NCBI RefSeq assembly: GCF_008639165.1
Contig: NZ_CP029197.1
Span: 5,398,001-5,462,000 of the forward strand
Direction of reading: 5' to 3'
Source: Streptomyces venezuelae ATCC 10712
GTDB taxonomy: Bacteria > Actinomycetota > Actinomycetes > Streptomycetales > Streptomycetaceae
DNA: 64,000 bases
Shown here: positions 5,274 through 62,119 of the stretch, in pieces
Position numbering within the stretch: position 1 is the first letter of the stretch
Layout of the letters: every line of letters starts with the position of its first letter
Program-made: the position numbers and the translations under genes
The notes under the pieces: model-generated
Seen by the model: only the letters and a program-made list of their open reading frames with translations
What the model was told of the DNA's origin: nothing
Databases searched by the model: none

Positions 5274-5495
5274 AGGGTAGGGCCGGGATAAAGCCGCGTT
5301 CGGCTTCCTGCTATCGTCCGGTGCCAACTGCGGCACTGCGGGCGCGGGCATCCGAGACGCCTGTCCCAGCGCGAGGCTCGATGCCGAACCGCCGCCCCCT
5401 TATCCGTAAGACCAGTCCAGTGCCGACCCGCGGCTGCGTGCCGCGCCGACACAACGAGGTTGCCGTACCTATGCGCCACGCTGAAGGAGCCCGCG

Positions 5496-6631
<1,136 letters not shown>

Positions 6632-6672
6632 GCCGGACCCCAAGCCCAGATCTTTTTACGGAAGGCACTGAT

Positions 6673-7218
6673 GTGAACGCTCTGCTTCTTGCGGCAGCGG
6701 AGGAGCCCCAGCCTCCTCTGATTCCGCACGCCGACGAGCTCGTCATCGGCCTGATCGCCTTCGTCATCGTCTTCGGCTTCCTCGCCAAGAAGCTCCTCCC
6801 GAACATCAACAAGGTTCTGGAGCAGCGCCGCGAGGCCATCGAGGGTGGCATCGAGAAGGCCGAGTCGGCCCAGATCGAGGCTCAGAGTGTGCTGGAGCAG
6901 TACAAGGCCCAGCTCGCCGAGGCCCGCCACGAGGCCGCGCGTCTTCGCCAGGAGGCGACGGAGCAGGGCACCGCGATCATCCAGGAGATGAAGGCGGAAG
7001 GCCAGCGCCAGCGCGAGGAGATCATCGCGGCCGGTCACACGCAGATCGAGGCCGACCGCAAGGCCGCTTCTGCTTCGCTGCGTCAGGACGTGGGCAAGCT
7101 CGCCACCGACCTGGCCGGCAAGCTGGTCGGCGAGTCCCTCGAGGACGTCGCCCGCCAGAGCCGGACGATCGACCGCTTCCTCGACGAGCTCGAGGAGAAG
7201 GCGGAGGCCGTCCGATGA
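6673..7218 (+). CDS. atpF: ATP synthase Fo subunit b
   Basis: Peripheral stalk subunit, 181 aa. It has one N-terminal membrane helix (about residues 22-42, LVIGLIAFVIVFGFLAKKLL), then a long charged coiled coil that reaches F1 and binds subunit delta. The start is GTG at 6673: the overlapping ATG at 6671 reads straight into TGA. GGAAGG just upstream is the ribosome site. The stop overlaps the atpH start as ATGA. Confidence 0.95.
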   Translation: MNALLLAAAEEPQPPLIPHADELVIGLIAFVIVFGFLAKKLLPNINKVLEQRREAIEGGIEKAESAQIEAQSVLEQYKAQLAEARHEAARLRQEATEQGTAIIQEMKAEGQRQREEIIAAGHTQIEADRKAASASLRQDVGKLATDLAGKLVGESLEDVARQSRTIDRFLDELEEKAEAVR

Positions 7219-8030
7219 ACGGAGCGAGCCGCGAGGCACTGGCCGCCGCACGCGAGTCCCTCGACGCGCTGACCGACAACACGTCGGCCGACGCGACGAC
7301 GCTCGCGGACGAGCTGGCCGCAGTCACCACGCTGCTCGACCGCGAGGTGTCGCTGCGCCGGGTCCTGACCGACCCCGCGCAGTCGGGTGAGGCCAAGGCC
7401 GAGCTCGCGCAGCGACTCCTGAGCGGTCAGGTGGGCGGCGCGACCGTCGACCTGGTGTCCGGCATGGTGCGTTCCCGCTGGTCGCGCTCGCGTGACCTGG
7501 TCGACGCGACCGAGGAACTGGCGAACACCGCCGACCTCACCGCGGCGCAGAAGGCGGGCGCCCTCGACGGCGTCGAGGACGAGCTGTTCCGCTTCGGCCG
7601 GATCGTGTCCTCCAGCCCCGAGCTGCGCTCGGCGCTGACGGACAAGGCCGCCACGGCCACCGCCAAGGGCGAGCTGCTCCGCAGCCTGCTCGGCGGCAAG
7701 GCCAACGCCGCCACCGAGCGTCTGGTCGTCCGTCTGGTGACCCAGCCCCGGGGACGTAGCCTGGAAGCGGGACTCGAGTCCCTGTCCAAGCTCGCCGCGG
7801 CGCGCCGGAACCGGATGGTCGCCGTCGTCACCTCGGCGGTGCCGCTGTCGGACCAGCAGAAGCAGCGCCTCGGAGCCGTACTCGCGAAGCTGTACGGCCG
7901 CGAGATGCACCTGAACCTGGACGTGGACCCCTCGGTCCTCGGCGGGATCACGGTGCAGGTCGGCGACGAGGTCATCAACGGCTCGATCGCGGAGCGCCTC
8001 GGCGAGGCGACCCGTCGACTGGCCGGCTGA
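7215..8030 (+). CDS. atpH: ATP synthase F1 subunit delta
   Basis: Connects the b-stalk to the top of the alpha3beta3 hexamer. It has 271 aa, longer than the 180 aa of E. coli but usual for actinobacteria. The C-terminal part shows the family motif [20 protein letters not shown]. The ATG overlaps the atpF stop, indicating translational coupling. About 150 bases follow before atpA. Confidence 0.94.
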
Positions 8031-8115
8031 CGGTCGTCACCAGCAGCACAAGGCATCACAGCTACACAGCATCACCAGCGGCCCGGTTGGGCCGTGCAGA
8101 GATTGCAGAAGATTC

Positions 8116-8133
8116 CTGGGGGTCGGCCCCCAG
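8116..8133. other. Hairpin in the atpH-atpA intergenic region
   Basis: CTGGGGG (8116-8122), loop TCGG, CCCCCAG (8127-8133): a perfect 7-bp GC-rich stem inside the 149-base gap before atpA. The C-rich flank CAGACCCC looks like a short dispersed intergenic element common in Streptomyces (recollection, not checked). It could act as an RNA stability or processing element; there is no T-tract. Confidence 0.6.
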
Positions 8134-8179
8134 ACCCCTTAAGAAACTTCGGGCCCAACAAGGAGAGCAGGGAACCCAG

Positions 8180-9778
8180 ATGGCGGAGCTCACGATCCGG
8201 CCGGAGGAGATCCGGGACGCACTGGAGAACTTCGTCCAGTCGTACCAGCCGGACGCGGCCTCGCGCGAGGAGGTCGGCACGGTCAGCCTGGCCGGTGACG
8301 GTATCGCGAAGGTCGAGGGTCTTCCCTCGGCCATGGCGAACGAGCTGCTGAAGTTCGAGGACGGGACCCTCGGTCTCGCGCTGAACCTCGAAGAGCGCGA
8401 GATCGGTGCGATCGTCCTCGGCGAGTTCAGCGGCATCGAGGAGGGTCAGTCGGTGCAGCGCACCGGCGAGGTCCTCTCCGTCGGCGTCGGTGAGGGATAC
8501 CTGGGTCGCGTCGTCGACCCGCTCGGCAACCCGATCGACGGTCTCGGCGAGATCGCGACCGAGGGCCGCCGCGCCCTCGAGCTGCAGGCCCCGGGCGTTA
8601 TGGCCCGTAAGTCGGTGCACGAGCCGATGGAGACCGGCTACAAGGCCGTCGACGCCATGACGCCGGTCGGCCGTGGTCAGCGTCAGCTGATCATCGGTGA
8701 CCGTCAGACCGGCAAGACCGCTCTGTGCGTCGACACGATCATCAACCAGCGCGACAACTGGCGCTCGGGCGACGTGAACAAGCAGGTCCGCTGCATCTAC
8801 GTCGCCGTCGGCCAGAAGGGCTCGACCATCGCGTCCGTGCGCGGCGCCCTGGAAGAGGCCGGTGCGCTCGAGTACACGACGATCGTCGCCGCCCCGGCGT
8901 CCGACCCGGCCGGCTTCAAGTACCTGGCGCCGTACACCGGCTCCGCCATCGGTCAGCACTGGATGTACCAGGGCAAGCACGTCCTGATCGTCTTCGACGA
9001 CCTGTCGAAGCAGGCCGACGCCTACCGCGCCGTGTCGCTGCTGCTGCGCCGCCCGCCGGGCCGTGAGGCCTACCCGGGTGACGTCTTCTACCTGCACTCG
9101 CGTCTGCTCGAGCGCTGCGCGAAGCTCTCGGACGAGCTGGGTGCCGGTTCGATGACCGGTCTTCCGATCGTCGAGACCAAGGCGAACGACGTGTCGGCGT
9201 TCATCCCGACCAACGTCATCTCCATCACCGACGGCCAGTGCTTCCTGGAGTCCGACCTGTTCAACGCCGGCCAGCGTCCGGCCCTGAACGTCGGTATCTC
9301 GGTCTCGCGTGTCGGTGGCTCCGCCCAGCACAAGGCGATGAAGCAGATCTCCGGTCGCCTCCGCGTGGACCTGGCCCAGTTCCGTGAGCTGGAGGCGTTC
9401 GCCGCCTTCGGTTCCGACCTGGACGCCGCCTCCAAGGCGCAGCTGGAGCGTGGACAGCGCATGGTCGAGCTGCTCAAGCAGGCTCAGTACCAGCCGATGC
9501 CCACCGAGAACCAGGTCGTCTCCGTCTGGGCCGGCACCACCGGCAAGATGGACGACGTCCCGGTCGTCGACATCCGTCGCTTCGAGGCCGAGCTCCTGGC
9601 GTACCTCCGCCAGAACCACTCGGGTCTCATGACCTCCATCCGTGAGGGCGGCAAGATGTCCGACGACACCCTGACGGCCGTGGGCGACGCCATCGCGGAG
9701 TTCAAGAAGCAGTTCGAGACCTCTGACGGCAAGCTGCTGGGCGAGGACGCTCCTGCCGCCGTCAACGTCTCGAAGTGA
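8180..9778 (+). CDS. atpA: ATP synthase F1 subunit alpha
   Basis: Non-catalytic nucleotide-binding subunit of the F1 hexamer, 532 aa. The beta-barrel N-domain is followed by the P-loop GDRQTGKT near residue 175, the [11 protein letters not shown] segment, and a helical C-domain ending in [13 protein letters not shown] at 8180 ([11 protein letters not shown]) is preferred over an in-frame start at 8087, whose extra residues do not look like the family. A GGAGAGCAGGGA stretch lies just upstream. It is central in the operon, followed 20 bases later by atpG. Confidence 0.96.
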
Positions 9779-57409: not shown

Positions 57410-57707
57410 GGACGTCGACCATACCCGTCGGTAGGTACGGCGCCAGAGGCCCGTCGTGTGAGCCAGTTCACCGTACGGATCGGCTCCGCGCCCTCCCGCC
57501 GGGTCTCCCCGGAGAGTTACGCTACGACCTGTAGCGAAAGGCAATGAGCGGCCTGAGCGACAACCAAGGCGCCGGGTGGGGACCCGGCGCGAACCGAAGA
57601 CGACGAACCGTGTCGGCCCACGTCTCGCACACCGGCGGGAGGCGTGCGGACGGCACGGTTCAGCCATGGCTTACCGGTTACGCGCGCGGAAGGGGGAGGA
57701 TGTACCC

Positions 57708-58747: not shown

Positions 58748-58785
58748 GCGGCCGCGCTTTACCAAAACTTGGTAATCGCGGCCGC
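58748..58785 (+). terminator. Terminator after the thioredoxin-TPR gene
   Basis: GCGGCCGCG (58748-58756), a short bulge, TTACCAA (58759-58765), loop AAC, and the complementary arm up to 58785. 16 bp in total. Confidence 0.75.
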
Positions 58786-58800: not shown

Positions 58801-58915
58801 ATCGAACCTGTGGTTCTGTCCGACTTCTTCCGGCAATCTGCTGATATCAGGCGCCACTCGAACGCACCCTGAGTGCCCGTACGGCCCCGCCCCGCCATGA
58901 CGCGGTTATCCACCC

Positions 58916-58931
58916 GTTACTAGCCAGTAAC
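58916..58931. promoter_or_regulatory. Palindrome, possible operator
   Basis: GTTACT-AGCC-AGTAAC, perfect 6-base arms with 4-base centre. Resembles TetR-type operators seen near lipid genes in actinobacteria (general recollection). GTTATCC just upstream (58905-58911) could be a -10. Confidence 0.5.
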
Positions 58932-59286
58932 GAACCCCCTTGTGCGAGCGCCCGGAATGGACCACGATCGGCGACGCTCGGTCCGAACCGCACCACCCCG
59001 GCAACCAACCGGGACGCGGCGAAGGTCCCCACCGGGCGGACCGGTGTTCCGGCACCGGTCGTGGACAGGGGGGTTCCCGCTCTCACCGAACGGGGCCTGT
59101 CCGAAAACAGGCCGCGTGACAAGGCGCGGCCGTGGTTGTCGCTCGGGGGTGATCGCCGGTGATTCGGACGCGCATCGCGCCGCCTGATGCCTCGGCGCTC
59201 TCCTTCCCGAGGACGTAGCTCTTCTCCCATCCCAGGACGGGCCCCGCGCCCTTCCGGAGATGTACGTCCGAGAAGGAGGAATTCTC

Positions 59287-59967
59287 ATGAAGTCCCAGGT
59301 TCGTGGCGGGACCAGATGGAAGCGGTTCGCCGTCGTCATGGTCCCGAGTGTGGCCGCGACGGCCGCGATCGGTGTCGGCCTGGCCCAGGGCGTGCTCGCC
59401 GCGTCCTTCAGCATCTCCGGCCAGGAGTTCAAGGTTAAGGCGAAGGAGCTCGAGGGCTACGACTTCGTCCAGTACGGCAGCTATGTCAAGGGCAAGGACC
59501 TGAAGGGCGGAGACCTCTCCGAGCCCGTCGCGGTCTCCGGCTTCTCCGAGGCCTACATCACGGACATGTGCCAGTCCGTCGTGACGCCCAACGTGCCGTT
59601 CATCGGCACGGTCTCGCTCCAGCTGTCGGCCGGTTCGAAGGGCAAGACCGCCACCGAGGACCGTCGCGTCTACGCCAAGGGCATCTACCTGGACGTCTCC
59701 TCGCTGGAGGCGAACGCCGAGTTCAAGAACATCGACATCGGCGTGGCCGCCGGTGCGCTCGGCAAGGACAACGACGGCAAGCCGAACGGCAAGCCCGGCA
59801 TCCAGCCCGGCACCGAGTCCAAGGCGCACCCGTACGGCTTCTCGCAGCGTGCCGACGAGGCCGTGCTGAAGGACGTGAAGCAGAAGGCGTGGGCGACGAC
59901 CGCCGCCACCTTCAAGCTCCCCGACCTGAAGCTGTCGCTGCACCGCGGCGCCGTGGAGTGCTTCTAG
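59287..59967 (+). CDS. DUF6230 family exported protein
   Basis: 226 aa. Basic N-terminus and one hydrophobic helix (about 20-40, VVMVPSVAATAAIGVGLAQGVLA) that may be a signal or anchor, then a beta-rich domain with SFSISGQEFKVKAKELEGYDFVQYG and ATFKLPDLKLSLHRGAVECF. Two cysteines (in DMCQS and at the end) may form a disulfide. Strong ribosome site AAGGAGGAATT before ATG 59287. First of a conserved three-gene set. Older annotation calls such proteins cholesterol esterase, which I cannot support. Confidence 0.82.
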   Translation: MKSQVRGGTRWKRFAVVMVPSVAATAAIGVGLAQGVLAASFSISGQEFKVKAKELEGYDFVQYGSYVKGKDLKGGDLSEPVAVSGFSEAYITDMCQSVVTPNVPFIGTVSLQLSAGSKGKTATEDRRVYAKGIYLDVSSLEANAEFKNIDIGVAAGALGKDNDGKPNGKPGIQPGTESKAHPYGFSQRADEAVLKDVKQKAWATTAATFKLPDLKLSLHRGAVECF

Positions 59968-60145
59968 GGCTTCGGCCCCTAGGGCTCCGTCTCCGCCGGC
60001 GGGCGAGGGCCGTCCCGTACGGTCCCGCCCGCACGGCCGGACACCTCGTGGCCGCGTAGCCGCGGTGACAGGGGGCACGGCGTGCGCCGGCCCCACCTTC
60101 TCCGTACCACCTTTCAGCACAACCGCTTCCAGGGAGCTGTTTTCC

Positions 60146-60718
60146 ATGAGCGCCGAGTCCACTGCTTCCCGCGGAGTCCCGATCATGCAGCGTTTCCGCG
60201 CCTGGCGGGGCAGTCGCCCCTTCTGGGCCGGACTGTTGACCATCCTGGGCGGCGTACCGATCGCGTACCTCCCCTACGGCGACATGCGACTCGGGAACAT
60301 GACCCTCGCCCTGGCGACCACCGCCGGAGCGGGCGCCCTGATCATCGGGGTCCTGCTCATCACCCTCGGTCTGACGATGTGGTTCCAGCCCATCGTCCGG
60401 GTGTTCGCGGGCGTCGCGGCGATCGTCCTGGCGCTCGTCTCCATCCCGGTGTCGAACTTCGGTGGCCTCTTCATCGGGTTCCTGCTCTCCATGACCGGTG
60501 GCGGCCTGTCCGTCTCGTGGGCGCCGGGGAAGCCGGTCGAAGAGACCGACGACGCTCAGCACGAAGCCTCGCCGGAGGCCTCCGAGGAGGCCCACCCCGC
60601 GTACGACACCGAGACCCAGGCCGTGGTGGCGGCCGGAGTCCCGGAGCAGCGCGACGGTGAACAGCAGGTGACCGACACGACGATCGACGCCAACGGCGGG
60701 AGGAACAGTGCGGGGTGA
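60146..60718 (+). CDS. DUF6114 membrane protein
   Basis: 190 aa. Four membrane helices in residues 24-120 (SRPFWAGLLTILGGVPIAYLPY opens the family), then an acidic, disordered cytoplasmic or extracellular tail (EETDDAQHEASPEASEEAHP). ATG 60146 after GGGAG. 178 bases after the DUF6230 gene and overlapping the next by 11 bases. Unknown role; likely a partner of the neighbouring exported proteins. Confidence 0.83.
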   Translation: MSAESTASRGVPIMQRFRAWRGSRPFWAGLLTILGGVPIAYLPYGDMRLGNMTLALATTAGAGALIIGVLLITLGLTMWFQPIVRVFAGVAAIVLALVSIPVSNFGGLFIGFLLSMTGGGLSVSWAPGKPVEETDDAQHEASPEASEEAHPAYDTETQAVVAAGVPEQRDGEQQVTDTTIDANGGRNSAG

Positions 60719-62033
60719 CGAGACTCAGTCGGCGCTCGCGAAGCAGGGGCCGCGGCACGCGGCTCCCCGCAAGTCGCTGCTGAACAGGATCCAGGGCCCC
60801 GCGGGCAAGGCGATGGCGCTGGCCGCCATGCCGACCGCGGTGTTCGTGGGCATGGGCCTCACGCCCAAGCTCGCCCTGGCCGACGAAGGAGACATACCCT
60901 TCGCGCCCGGCCCCTGCGTGACGCGCTCGGACGAGCCGGCGCCGGAGGAGAGCACCAAGCCCGCCGAGACGGCGAAGCCGAAGCCGACCGCGACGCCCTC
61001 GGCCACCGCGACGGCCACCCCGACCGCGACGGCCACGCCGACGGGGAACCCGACCCCGACCGGGACCCAGCAGGCGACGGCCCAGCCGACGCAGCAGGCC
61101 CAGTCCCAGACCCAGCCCCAGTCCCAGACTCAGGAGCGGGCGAAGGCCACCGCCGCGCCGACCGCGACGCCGACGGCCACGCCCACCCCCACGAAGTCGA
61201 AGAACCCGCTCGACCCGCTGGGCCTCGGCGACGCGCTCAAGGACCTGTTCGACGGCCCGGACCCCAAGCCGACGGCGACGCCCACCCCGGCGCCCCCGAC
61301 GACGCAGGCCCCGGCCCCCGCCGCCAAGCCCGCGACGTCCGACGACAAGGCCCCGGCCGCCACGAGCACGCCGAAGGCCGACCCGACGCCGACGAAGCCG
61401 GCCACCGACCCGGCGGCCGAGAAGACGAAGGCCGAGATCGAGAAGGCCGCGGCGAAGGCGGGCGCGAAGGTCGAGGAGCTCCCCGAGAGCGCCAAGGGCC
61501 TGGACGCCAAGAAGGACGAGGACATACCGGAGGGCGCCAAGCCGCGCTTCCCGTGCCCCGTGCCCGACCCCGAGGCGCTGGCCGCGGCCGAACTGGAGCC
61601 CGGCATCCCGCTGCTCCCGGACGACCCGTGGCGACTGGACAGCACGAAGCTCACCCTGCTGGGCCTCAAGTACCACGGCATCGTCGAGGTCAAGACGGCC
61701 GGCGGCAAGATCAAGAAGGTCCTGAAGTTCACGGCGACCAACGTCAAGATCAAGGACCTGCACCAGACGACGGTCCACTCCCCGGGCTACTCGGGCCACG
61801 TCCGGTCGACCCCGGGCAAGGAGTCGACCATCGACAACGGCAAGGTGACGATGTACACGGAGTCCCTGAAGGGCAACCTCTTCGGCATCTTCCCGGTCAC
61901 CTTCAGCCCGGCGACCCCGCCCCCACTGGACGTCCCGCTCGCCATCTTCACCGACGTGGTGGTGATGCAGGCCGGCCAGTTCGGCGGCACCCTGACCGTC
62001 CCGGGCCTCCGCAACACGATCGAACCCAGCTGA
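60708..62033 (+). CDS. Secreted protein with long Pro/Thr/Gln-rich stalk
   Basis: 441 aa. Basic start, signal-like helix (about 33-58) ending KLALADEGD, then a low-complexity region of about 200 residues made of PTATPTAT-type repeats, SQTQPQSQTQ and Lys/Ala stretches, then a C-terminal domain (about 285-441) with PCPVPDPEALAAAE, TKLTLLGLKYHGIVEVKTA and the end TVPGLRNTIEPS. Looks like a surface domain on a wall-spanning stalk. GTG 60708 after GGGAGGAACA. Function unknown. Confidence 0.8.
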   Translation: MRGDETQSALAKQGPRHAAPRKSLLNRIQGPAGKAMALAAMPTAVFVGMGLTPKLALADEGDIPFAPGPCVTRSDEPAPEESTKPAETAKPKPTATPSATATATPTATATPTGNPTPTGTQQATAQPTQQAQSQTQPQSQTQERAKATAAPTATPTATPTPTKSKNPLDPLGLGDALKDLFDGPDPKPTATPTPAPPTTQAPAPAAKPATSDDKAPAATSTPKADPTPTKPATDPAAEKTKAEIEKAAAKAGAKVEELPESAKGLDAKKDEDIPEGAKPRFPCPVPDPEALAAAELEPGIPLLPDDPWRLDSTKLTLLGLKYHGIVEVKTAGGKIKKVLKFTATNVKIKDLHQTTVHSPGYSGHVRSTPGKESTIDNGKVTMYTESLKGNLFGIFPVTFSPATPPPLDVPLAIFTDVVVMQAGQFGGTLTVPGLRNTIEPS

Positions 62034-62086: not shown

Positions 62087-62119
62087 CGAAGCCCCCGTCC
62101 GGATCGGACGGGGGCTTCG
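62087..62119. terminator. Bidirectional terminator between stalk-protein gene and pyk
   Basis: Perfect 15-bp stem CGAAGCCCCCGTCCG (62087-62101), loop GAT, arm 62105-62119, between convergent genes. Confidence 0.9.

Follow-up and report, generated by a model that had tools for sequence, protein, structure and literature searches.

The window, a 64,000-nt stretch (5398001-5462000) of the 8.22-Mb genome of Streptomyces venezuelae ATCC 10712, harbours three consecutive genes, hereafter called A, B and C, which raise the question of whether they form a functional module and of what such a module would do. The sequence-only reading of this DNA had singled them out as a cassette whose products are exported, membrane-embedded and stalked at the surface, respectively, and an ORF check of the window located the three genes exactly where that reading had placed them (Table 1).

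Table 1. Features of the A-B-C cassette, its upstream region and its downstream border. Positions are those of the window.
Feature	Position	Strand	Basis
Conserved palindrome TTACCAAAACTTGGTAA, possible operator, upstream of A	58759..58775	+	Palindrome counts, leader alignment
Conserved palindrome CGTTACTAGCCAGTAACG, possible operator, upstream of A	58915..58932	+	CGTTAC-n6-GTAACG in 54/61 loci
che1 RNA (Rfam RF02935), leader element of A	59062..59158	+	79.8 bits, gathering 54.1
Invariant che1 3' part GTTGTCGCTCGGGGGTGA	59135..59152	+	Columns (nearly) invariant, 53 leaders
Predicted anti-SD arm of sequestering hairpin	59198..59218	+	RNAalifold, local folding
SD arm, ribosome-binding site of A, predicted to be paired in hairpin	59263..59279	+	53/53 leaders
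Gene A, exported DUF6230 protein ('cholesterol esterase' annotation in Streptomyces)	59287..59967	+	PF19741, E=2.8e-51
Gene B, DUF6114 four-helix membrane protein, hydrophilic tail	60146..60718	+	PF19609, E=1.1e-32
Gene C, tethered outer protein, start 11 nt inside B	60708..62033	+	ORF
C hydrophobic N-terminal segment, signal or anchor	60810..60866	+	Hydropathy
C stalk, 212 aa of low complexity, between Cys70 and Cys283	60918..61553	+	Cys pattern
C outer domain, conserved, remote A-domain homologue	61554..62030	+	hhalign; AF2
Inverted repeat between C and pyk	62087..62119	.	Read directly from sequence

To characterize the genetic environment of the cassette, we fetched 62 Streptomyces loci and called their genes with a simple script. 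The gene order is TetR-trx-A-B-C-pyk, with pyk on the opposite strand downstream of the cassette. A, B and C were called directly as consecutive genes on one strand in 60 of the 62 loci; of the two others, one lies at a contig end, and in the second the ORF caller overlooked B, although the gene is there. The thioredoxin-TPR gene (trx) adjoins A in 61 of the fetched loci, and the TetR gene adjoins the thioredoxin-TPR gene in 60 of them. The conserved order that had been suggested for Streptomyces was thus borne out, far above chance. The frames of B and C share 11 nt, a junction seen at 39 Streptomyces loci and more frequent than any other between the two genes. A and B are separated by 178 nt (59968-60145), for a median of 117 nt in the relatives, and this gap could tune the expression of A against that of B-C. 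The inverted repeat that follows C is likely to represent a bidirectional terminator, as judged from its sequence; a T-tract scan did not flag it.

Beyond the genus, A and B (the latter above its cut-off) are each found in 61 of 296 genomes of the class. Of 106 A places, 100 are followed directly by B, and of 102 B places, 100 are directly preceded by A. The C domain was located in 53 of these genomes, at 56 places that are without exception just downstream of B (56/56), and at 25 of these places it is coded in one open frame with B. In this co-occurrence survey, A, B and C therefore did not behave as independently occurring genes. Outside Streptomyces, the A-B pair is the core. A-B pairs devoid of C were also found among the fetched loci, indicating that C is an addition to this core. 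The A-B pair as such is spread over many genera, some of them in families that do not belong to the order, and is carried by Rhodococcus plasmids (L011, 8079-9822; L012, 7962-8950), showing that the core can be mobile. A search of plasmids yielded eight distant A relatives, and none was found in the phage records searched.

Additional arrangements were observed. A second cluster in the S. venezuelae genome (1058000-1074000, locus 5377-9259) has the composition A-B-A-B-C-A on one strand, with a C devoid of stalk; it is accompanied by a divergent TetR gene and followed by a gene for an alpha/beta hydrolase. Two genomes of one family outside the class Actinomycetes encode SLT + M23 peptidoglycan hydrolases that begin with a DUF6230-like domain (L076, 3221-5647; L077, 3006-5540) and whose genes are divergent from an A-B pair.

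The proteins of the cassette vary considerably in sequence. Median amino acid identities among Streptomyces are 0.63 for A, 0.55 for B, 0.59 for the outer domain of C and 0.36 for its stalk, versus 0.79, 0.87 and 0.79 for the flanking trx, pyk and ack genes, respectively. Similarly, the dN/dS ratios are 0.29 (A), 0.36 (B), 0.29 (C outer domain) and 0.47 (stalk), and 0.14-0.19 for the flanks. The cassette is faster-evolving than its flanks, as expected for exposed proteins. These values do not prove positive selection, as dN/dS never exceeded 1 in the close pairs tested; they fit relaxed or diversifying selection. In S. pratensis, the trio Sfla_1909-1911 (annotated hypothetical, hypothetical and cholesterol esterase) belongs to a set of 59 highly divergent core genes (PMC4239341), and its gene order makes it likely to be this locus. 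After subtraction of a species proxy, evolutionary distances are correlated between A and B (0.51), A and C (0.51) and B and C (0.33), with 0/2000 permutations in each case, although the linkage of adjacent genes can contribute part of this signal; the corresponding value for A and TetR is -0.04. That A, B and C constitute one module is well supported by the conserved gene order, the co-evolution and the B-C fusions.

B is a protein of 190 residues that matches PF19609 (DUF6114) with 113.3 bits (cut-off 27.9). Its previous description as a four-helix membrane protein agrees with its hydrophobic segments, four of which are discernible by eye and three of which pass a strict hydropathy threshold. 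According to domain calls in the fetched loci, the fused B-C proteins are composed of four helices, a linker, a fifth hydrophobic segment and the C domain, and the hydrophobic segment of C is equivalent to TM5 of these fusions. The idea of a membrane platform that would present an outer domain is strongly supported by the presence of B and C in single frames in 25 genomes of the class.

C starts with a GTG codon, is 441 residues long and belongs to no Pfam or NCBIfam family. The long stalk and the conserved outer domain noticed previously are both there; the stalk, however, is not of the Pro/Thr/Gln type but rich in Ala, Thr, Pro and Lys (42, 38, 38 and 21 residues, respectively, with only 12 Gln). 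In 58 of 60 orthologues, C has exactly two Cys residues, which lie on either side of the stalk at a spacing of 183-293 residues, the first following the hydrophobic segment and the second preceding the outer domain. In the simplest reading of this pattern, a disulfide between them may close the stalk into a loop, and it is possible that they pair with another protein instead. An A-x-A signal-peptidase-like site precedes the first Cys in 49 of 60 orthologues, and C may therefore be released rather than anchored. C harbours no LPxTG motif and its C-terminus is a beta domain, so it does not qualify as a sortase-anchored protein. A role of C as a wall-spanning presenter is therefore doubtful, considering that the stalk is possibly looped between its flanking Cys residues and that the A-x-A site allows release.

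A, which starts with an ATG codon and comprises 226 residues, is a clear member of the DUF6230 family, matching the entire PF19741 profile (1-145/145) with 174.1 bits (cut-off 27.5). Its N-terminus is signal-like, with a GxLA↓A site in 57 of 60 orthologues. It contains exactly two Cys residues (positions 95 and 225), conserved in 32 of 37 members of the wider family, and its AF2 model is all-beta, without long helices (pLDDT 90.7). These features match the exported, beta-rich protein with two cysteines that had been anticipated.

Comparisons of diverse A and C families with hhalign revealed a relationship between the two proteins, with P values of 2.6e-5 and 1.4e-6 and scores of 39.5 and 47.1 over approximately 141 collinear columns; the controls scored 11.9 (reversed C alignment) and at most 16.0 (60 column shuffles). 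The outer domain of C was thereby identified computationally, by profile-profile comparison alone, as a remote homologue of A. Diverse families were needed for this, as the comparison restricted to Streptomyces orthologues was not significant, and neither C nor any of 62 relatives matched DUF6230 (PF19741) at the Pfam cut-off. The AF2 model of the C outer domain is also all-beta (pLDDT 93.9), and the independent A and C models share the strand pattern of their C-terminal parts. Foldseek searches with both models returned no match in the PDB at E <= 0.001, and sequence searches of the PDB with A and C returned nothing. The best VIA Z scores against the PDB were 2.5 for A and 3.3 for C, and such a missing match does not prove a new fold.

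An actinomycete family of 'novel cholesterol esterase' was reportedly described by Xiang in 2007. In S. coelicolor, SCO5419 is trxA4 (PMC9952706) and SCO5423 is pyk2 (PMC7494193), and hence A, B and C should occupy the three locus numbers that separate these two genes. From synteny and annotation, A should be the orthologue of SCO5420, a 'cholesterol esterase' gene that is induced almost 37-fold on Tween40 relative to glucose according to a single RNA-seq comparison, in which the authors took the product to be an esterase (PMC7494193). The statement that none of the three proteins has a known function thus needs correcting for A, whose orthologue carries this annotation and responds to Tween. 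Catabolite or growth-rate control could also account for the induction. In the supernatant of S. scabiei, proteins annotated as cholesterol esterases rank first in abundance within the lipid class (PMC5158115); that they correspond to A is assumed through the shared annotation. In Streptomyces sp. SirexAA-E, one protein so annotated is also listed among those that increase on xylose and xylobiose (PMC12772271).

We examined whether this annotation holds. If A were genuinely a secreted esterase for cholesterol or lipid esters, from a non-classical family, and B and C helped its export, folding or retention at the surface, this would agree with the Tween induction of SCO5420 and with the supernatant proteins of the same annotation, but several features of A make this reading unlikely. 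A GxSxG motif was sought in A and is absent. No His residue is invariant among 62 close orthologues, the commonest His column reaching 55/62, and no His column is held by half of 37 members of the wider family. The lack of an invariant His implies the lack of a Ser-His-Asp triad. Furthermore, the model of A is all-beta, not of the alpha/beta-hydrolase type, and its domain is also employed elsewhere, in C as a tethered partner and in wall hydrolases as an appendage. On these grounds, we rejected A as an alpha/beta-hydrolase-type cholesterol esterase or lipase. Taking the Tween induction together with the lack of the GxSxG motif, of an invariant His and of the alpha/beta fold, we tentatively favour for A the binding or carrying of a hydrophobic, ester-type substrate, with the domain copy in C as the partner at the membrane.

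Alternatively, the domain of A, and that of C, might recognize peptidoglycan or a wall polymer, the trio assisting wall integrity or remodelling. The fusion to SLT + M23 hydrolases beside an A-B pair also fits wall binding, and the Pro/Thr-rich stalk and the near-universal presence of the trio in Streptomyces point the same way. Nevertheless, the fusion is limited to two genomes of a single lineage, the proteins are without known wall-binding motif and the Tween induction is left unexplained, making a wall module a distinctly improbable reading. Finally, the surface assembly of spores or aerial hyphae imagined in the sequence-only reading is unsupported and very unlikely, since the export of the proteins, their conservation in all Streptomyces tested, their evolution faster than that of the flanks and the divergence of Sfla_1909-1911 in S. 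pratensis (PMC4239341) are outweighed by the occurrence of A-B pairs in many genera, in families outside the order and on Rhodococcus plasmids, and by the sole expression data, which point to carbon source and not to development.

The region upstream of A provides hints on the control of the cassette. The 600-bp trx-A interval is strikingly conserved and contains the che1 RNA, whose covariance-model match covers the full model (1-91/91) and is the sole copy in the genome. The sequence-only reading had mentioned neither this conserved leader nor the B/C overlap, the relationship between A and C and the B-C fusions. We found che1 in 57 of 61 Streptomyces, in one copy per genome, and in no other genus in our small sample of the order; at eight paralogous or distant loci it is below the gathering score. 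Additional strongly conserved leader blocks, including ACCACGATCGGC and GGTCCCCACCG, lie upstream of che1 (58954-59062). Further upstream, in the interval between the TetR and thioredoxin-TPR genes (window 57410-57707), a CGCTAC-n5-GTAGCG palindrome is present in 58 of 60 loci and is probably the TetR operator. We did not assign TetR as the regulator of A, because its own palindrome differs from the CGTTAC-n6-GTAACG and TTACCA-n5-TGGTAA palindromes upstream of A. A scan for sigma-70-type promoters returned nothing, but such a scan is uninformative for Streptomyces.

Folding of the leaders suggests that the ribosome site of A may be masked. From 53 leaders, RNAalifold independently draws a hairpin over this site (about 59200-59217 with 59263-59278), and the SD is paired to the anti-SD arm in the local folds of all of them (53/53). 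The 12 pairs of this hairpin (12/12) are kept in all 53 leaders, as are, in every leader sequence, all 31 pairs tested when the che1 helices are included. Covariation is seen in che1 helices 2 and 3; the SD helices are near-invariant and hence carry little covariation information. The predicted pairing of the che1 3' part with the anti-SD arm has an energy of -17.8 kcal/mol, with -18.7 for the best overlapping 18-mer (59138). No other leader 18-mers pair better with the anti-SD arm than those of the stretch around 59135-59152, although 48 of 2000 shuffles were as good, so that the composition control speaks only modestly for this competing pairing. Translational riboswitches function by exchange between anti-SD and anti-anti-SD pairings, and for the A leader, too, two near-invariant pairings that would exclude each other are predicted at the ribosome site. 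It is plausible that this leader is a candidate translational switch, in which a competing pairing would free the SD; it could equally be a protein- or temperature-responsive element. As for the known element, the A leader is che1, but the Rfam model spans 91 positions, with the SD hairpin downstream of it and the competing pairing partly outside. In S. lividans, che1 was listed as a cis element of SLIV_11405, under 'cholesterol metabolism' and with RNA-seq validation (PMC8079986), and its function was elsewhere called unknown (PMC11678152).

Bringing these elements together, we propose an envelope module for the binding or transfer of hydrophobic esters, with che1-gated translation. A would be a secreted beta-protein that captures a hydrophobic, ester-containing substrate, and B a four-helix membrane scaffold. 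C would hold a diverged A domain on an anchor beside B, and at the cell surface this domain would receive either A itself or what A carries; the stalk of C, probably closed into a loop by the flanking Cys residues, would keep the outer domain near the membrane. The hairpin would hide the ribosome site of A, and pairing of the che1 3' part with the anti-SD arm would release it. We infer lipid binding, cargo transfer, the disulfide, the switch behaviour and its trigger, and the explanation as a whole is tentative, somewhat short of an even chance. The handling of lipid esters by the module, also inferred, is possible rather than probable when taken separately. A bolder version, which we regard as speculative and improbable, is that a secreted protein and its tethered homologue have in common a beta fold that the PDB does not contain and hand on a hydrophobic substrate via their four-helix partner, while a che1 riboswitch senses a related metabolite.

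The proposed envelope module has some likeness to described systems. In systems made of a secreted substrate-binding protein and a membrane receptor, the soluble and membrane partners are encoded together. The cassette similarly encodes a soluble and a membrane partner. Unlike those systems, it includes neither a transporter ATPase nor a permease, and its soluble and tethered parts are mutual homologues. With respect to SCO5420, A is its orthologue by synteny but is without classical esterase hallmarks, and B, C, the B-C fusion and the A-like domain of C are not described in the SCO5420 literature. B is a clear DUF6114 member, which the gene order analysed here ties to A and the fusions tie to C.

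We conclude with high confidence that the module is real, with the architecture described here, that it is more tightly bound than the sequence-only reading could tell and that it is partly misannotated. The trio belongs to the core genes of the genus from which most antibiotics come, but what is said of it rests on one 'cholesterol esterase' annotation, which neither the sequence nor the model of A supports. Our findings frame three questions: does DUF6230 act as an enzyme or as a carrier, does C serve as its partner at the membrane, and does che1 work as a translational switch?
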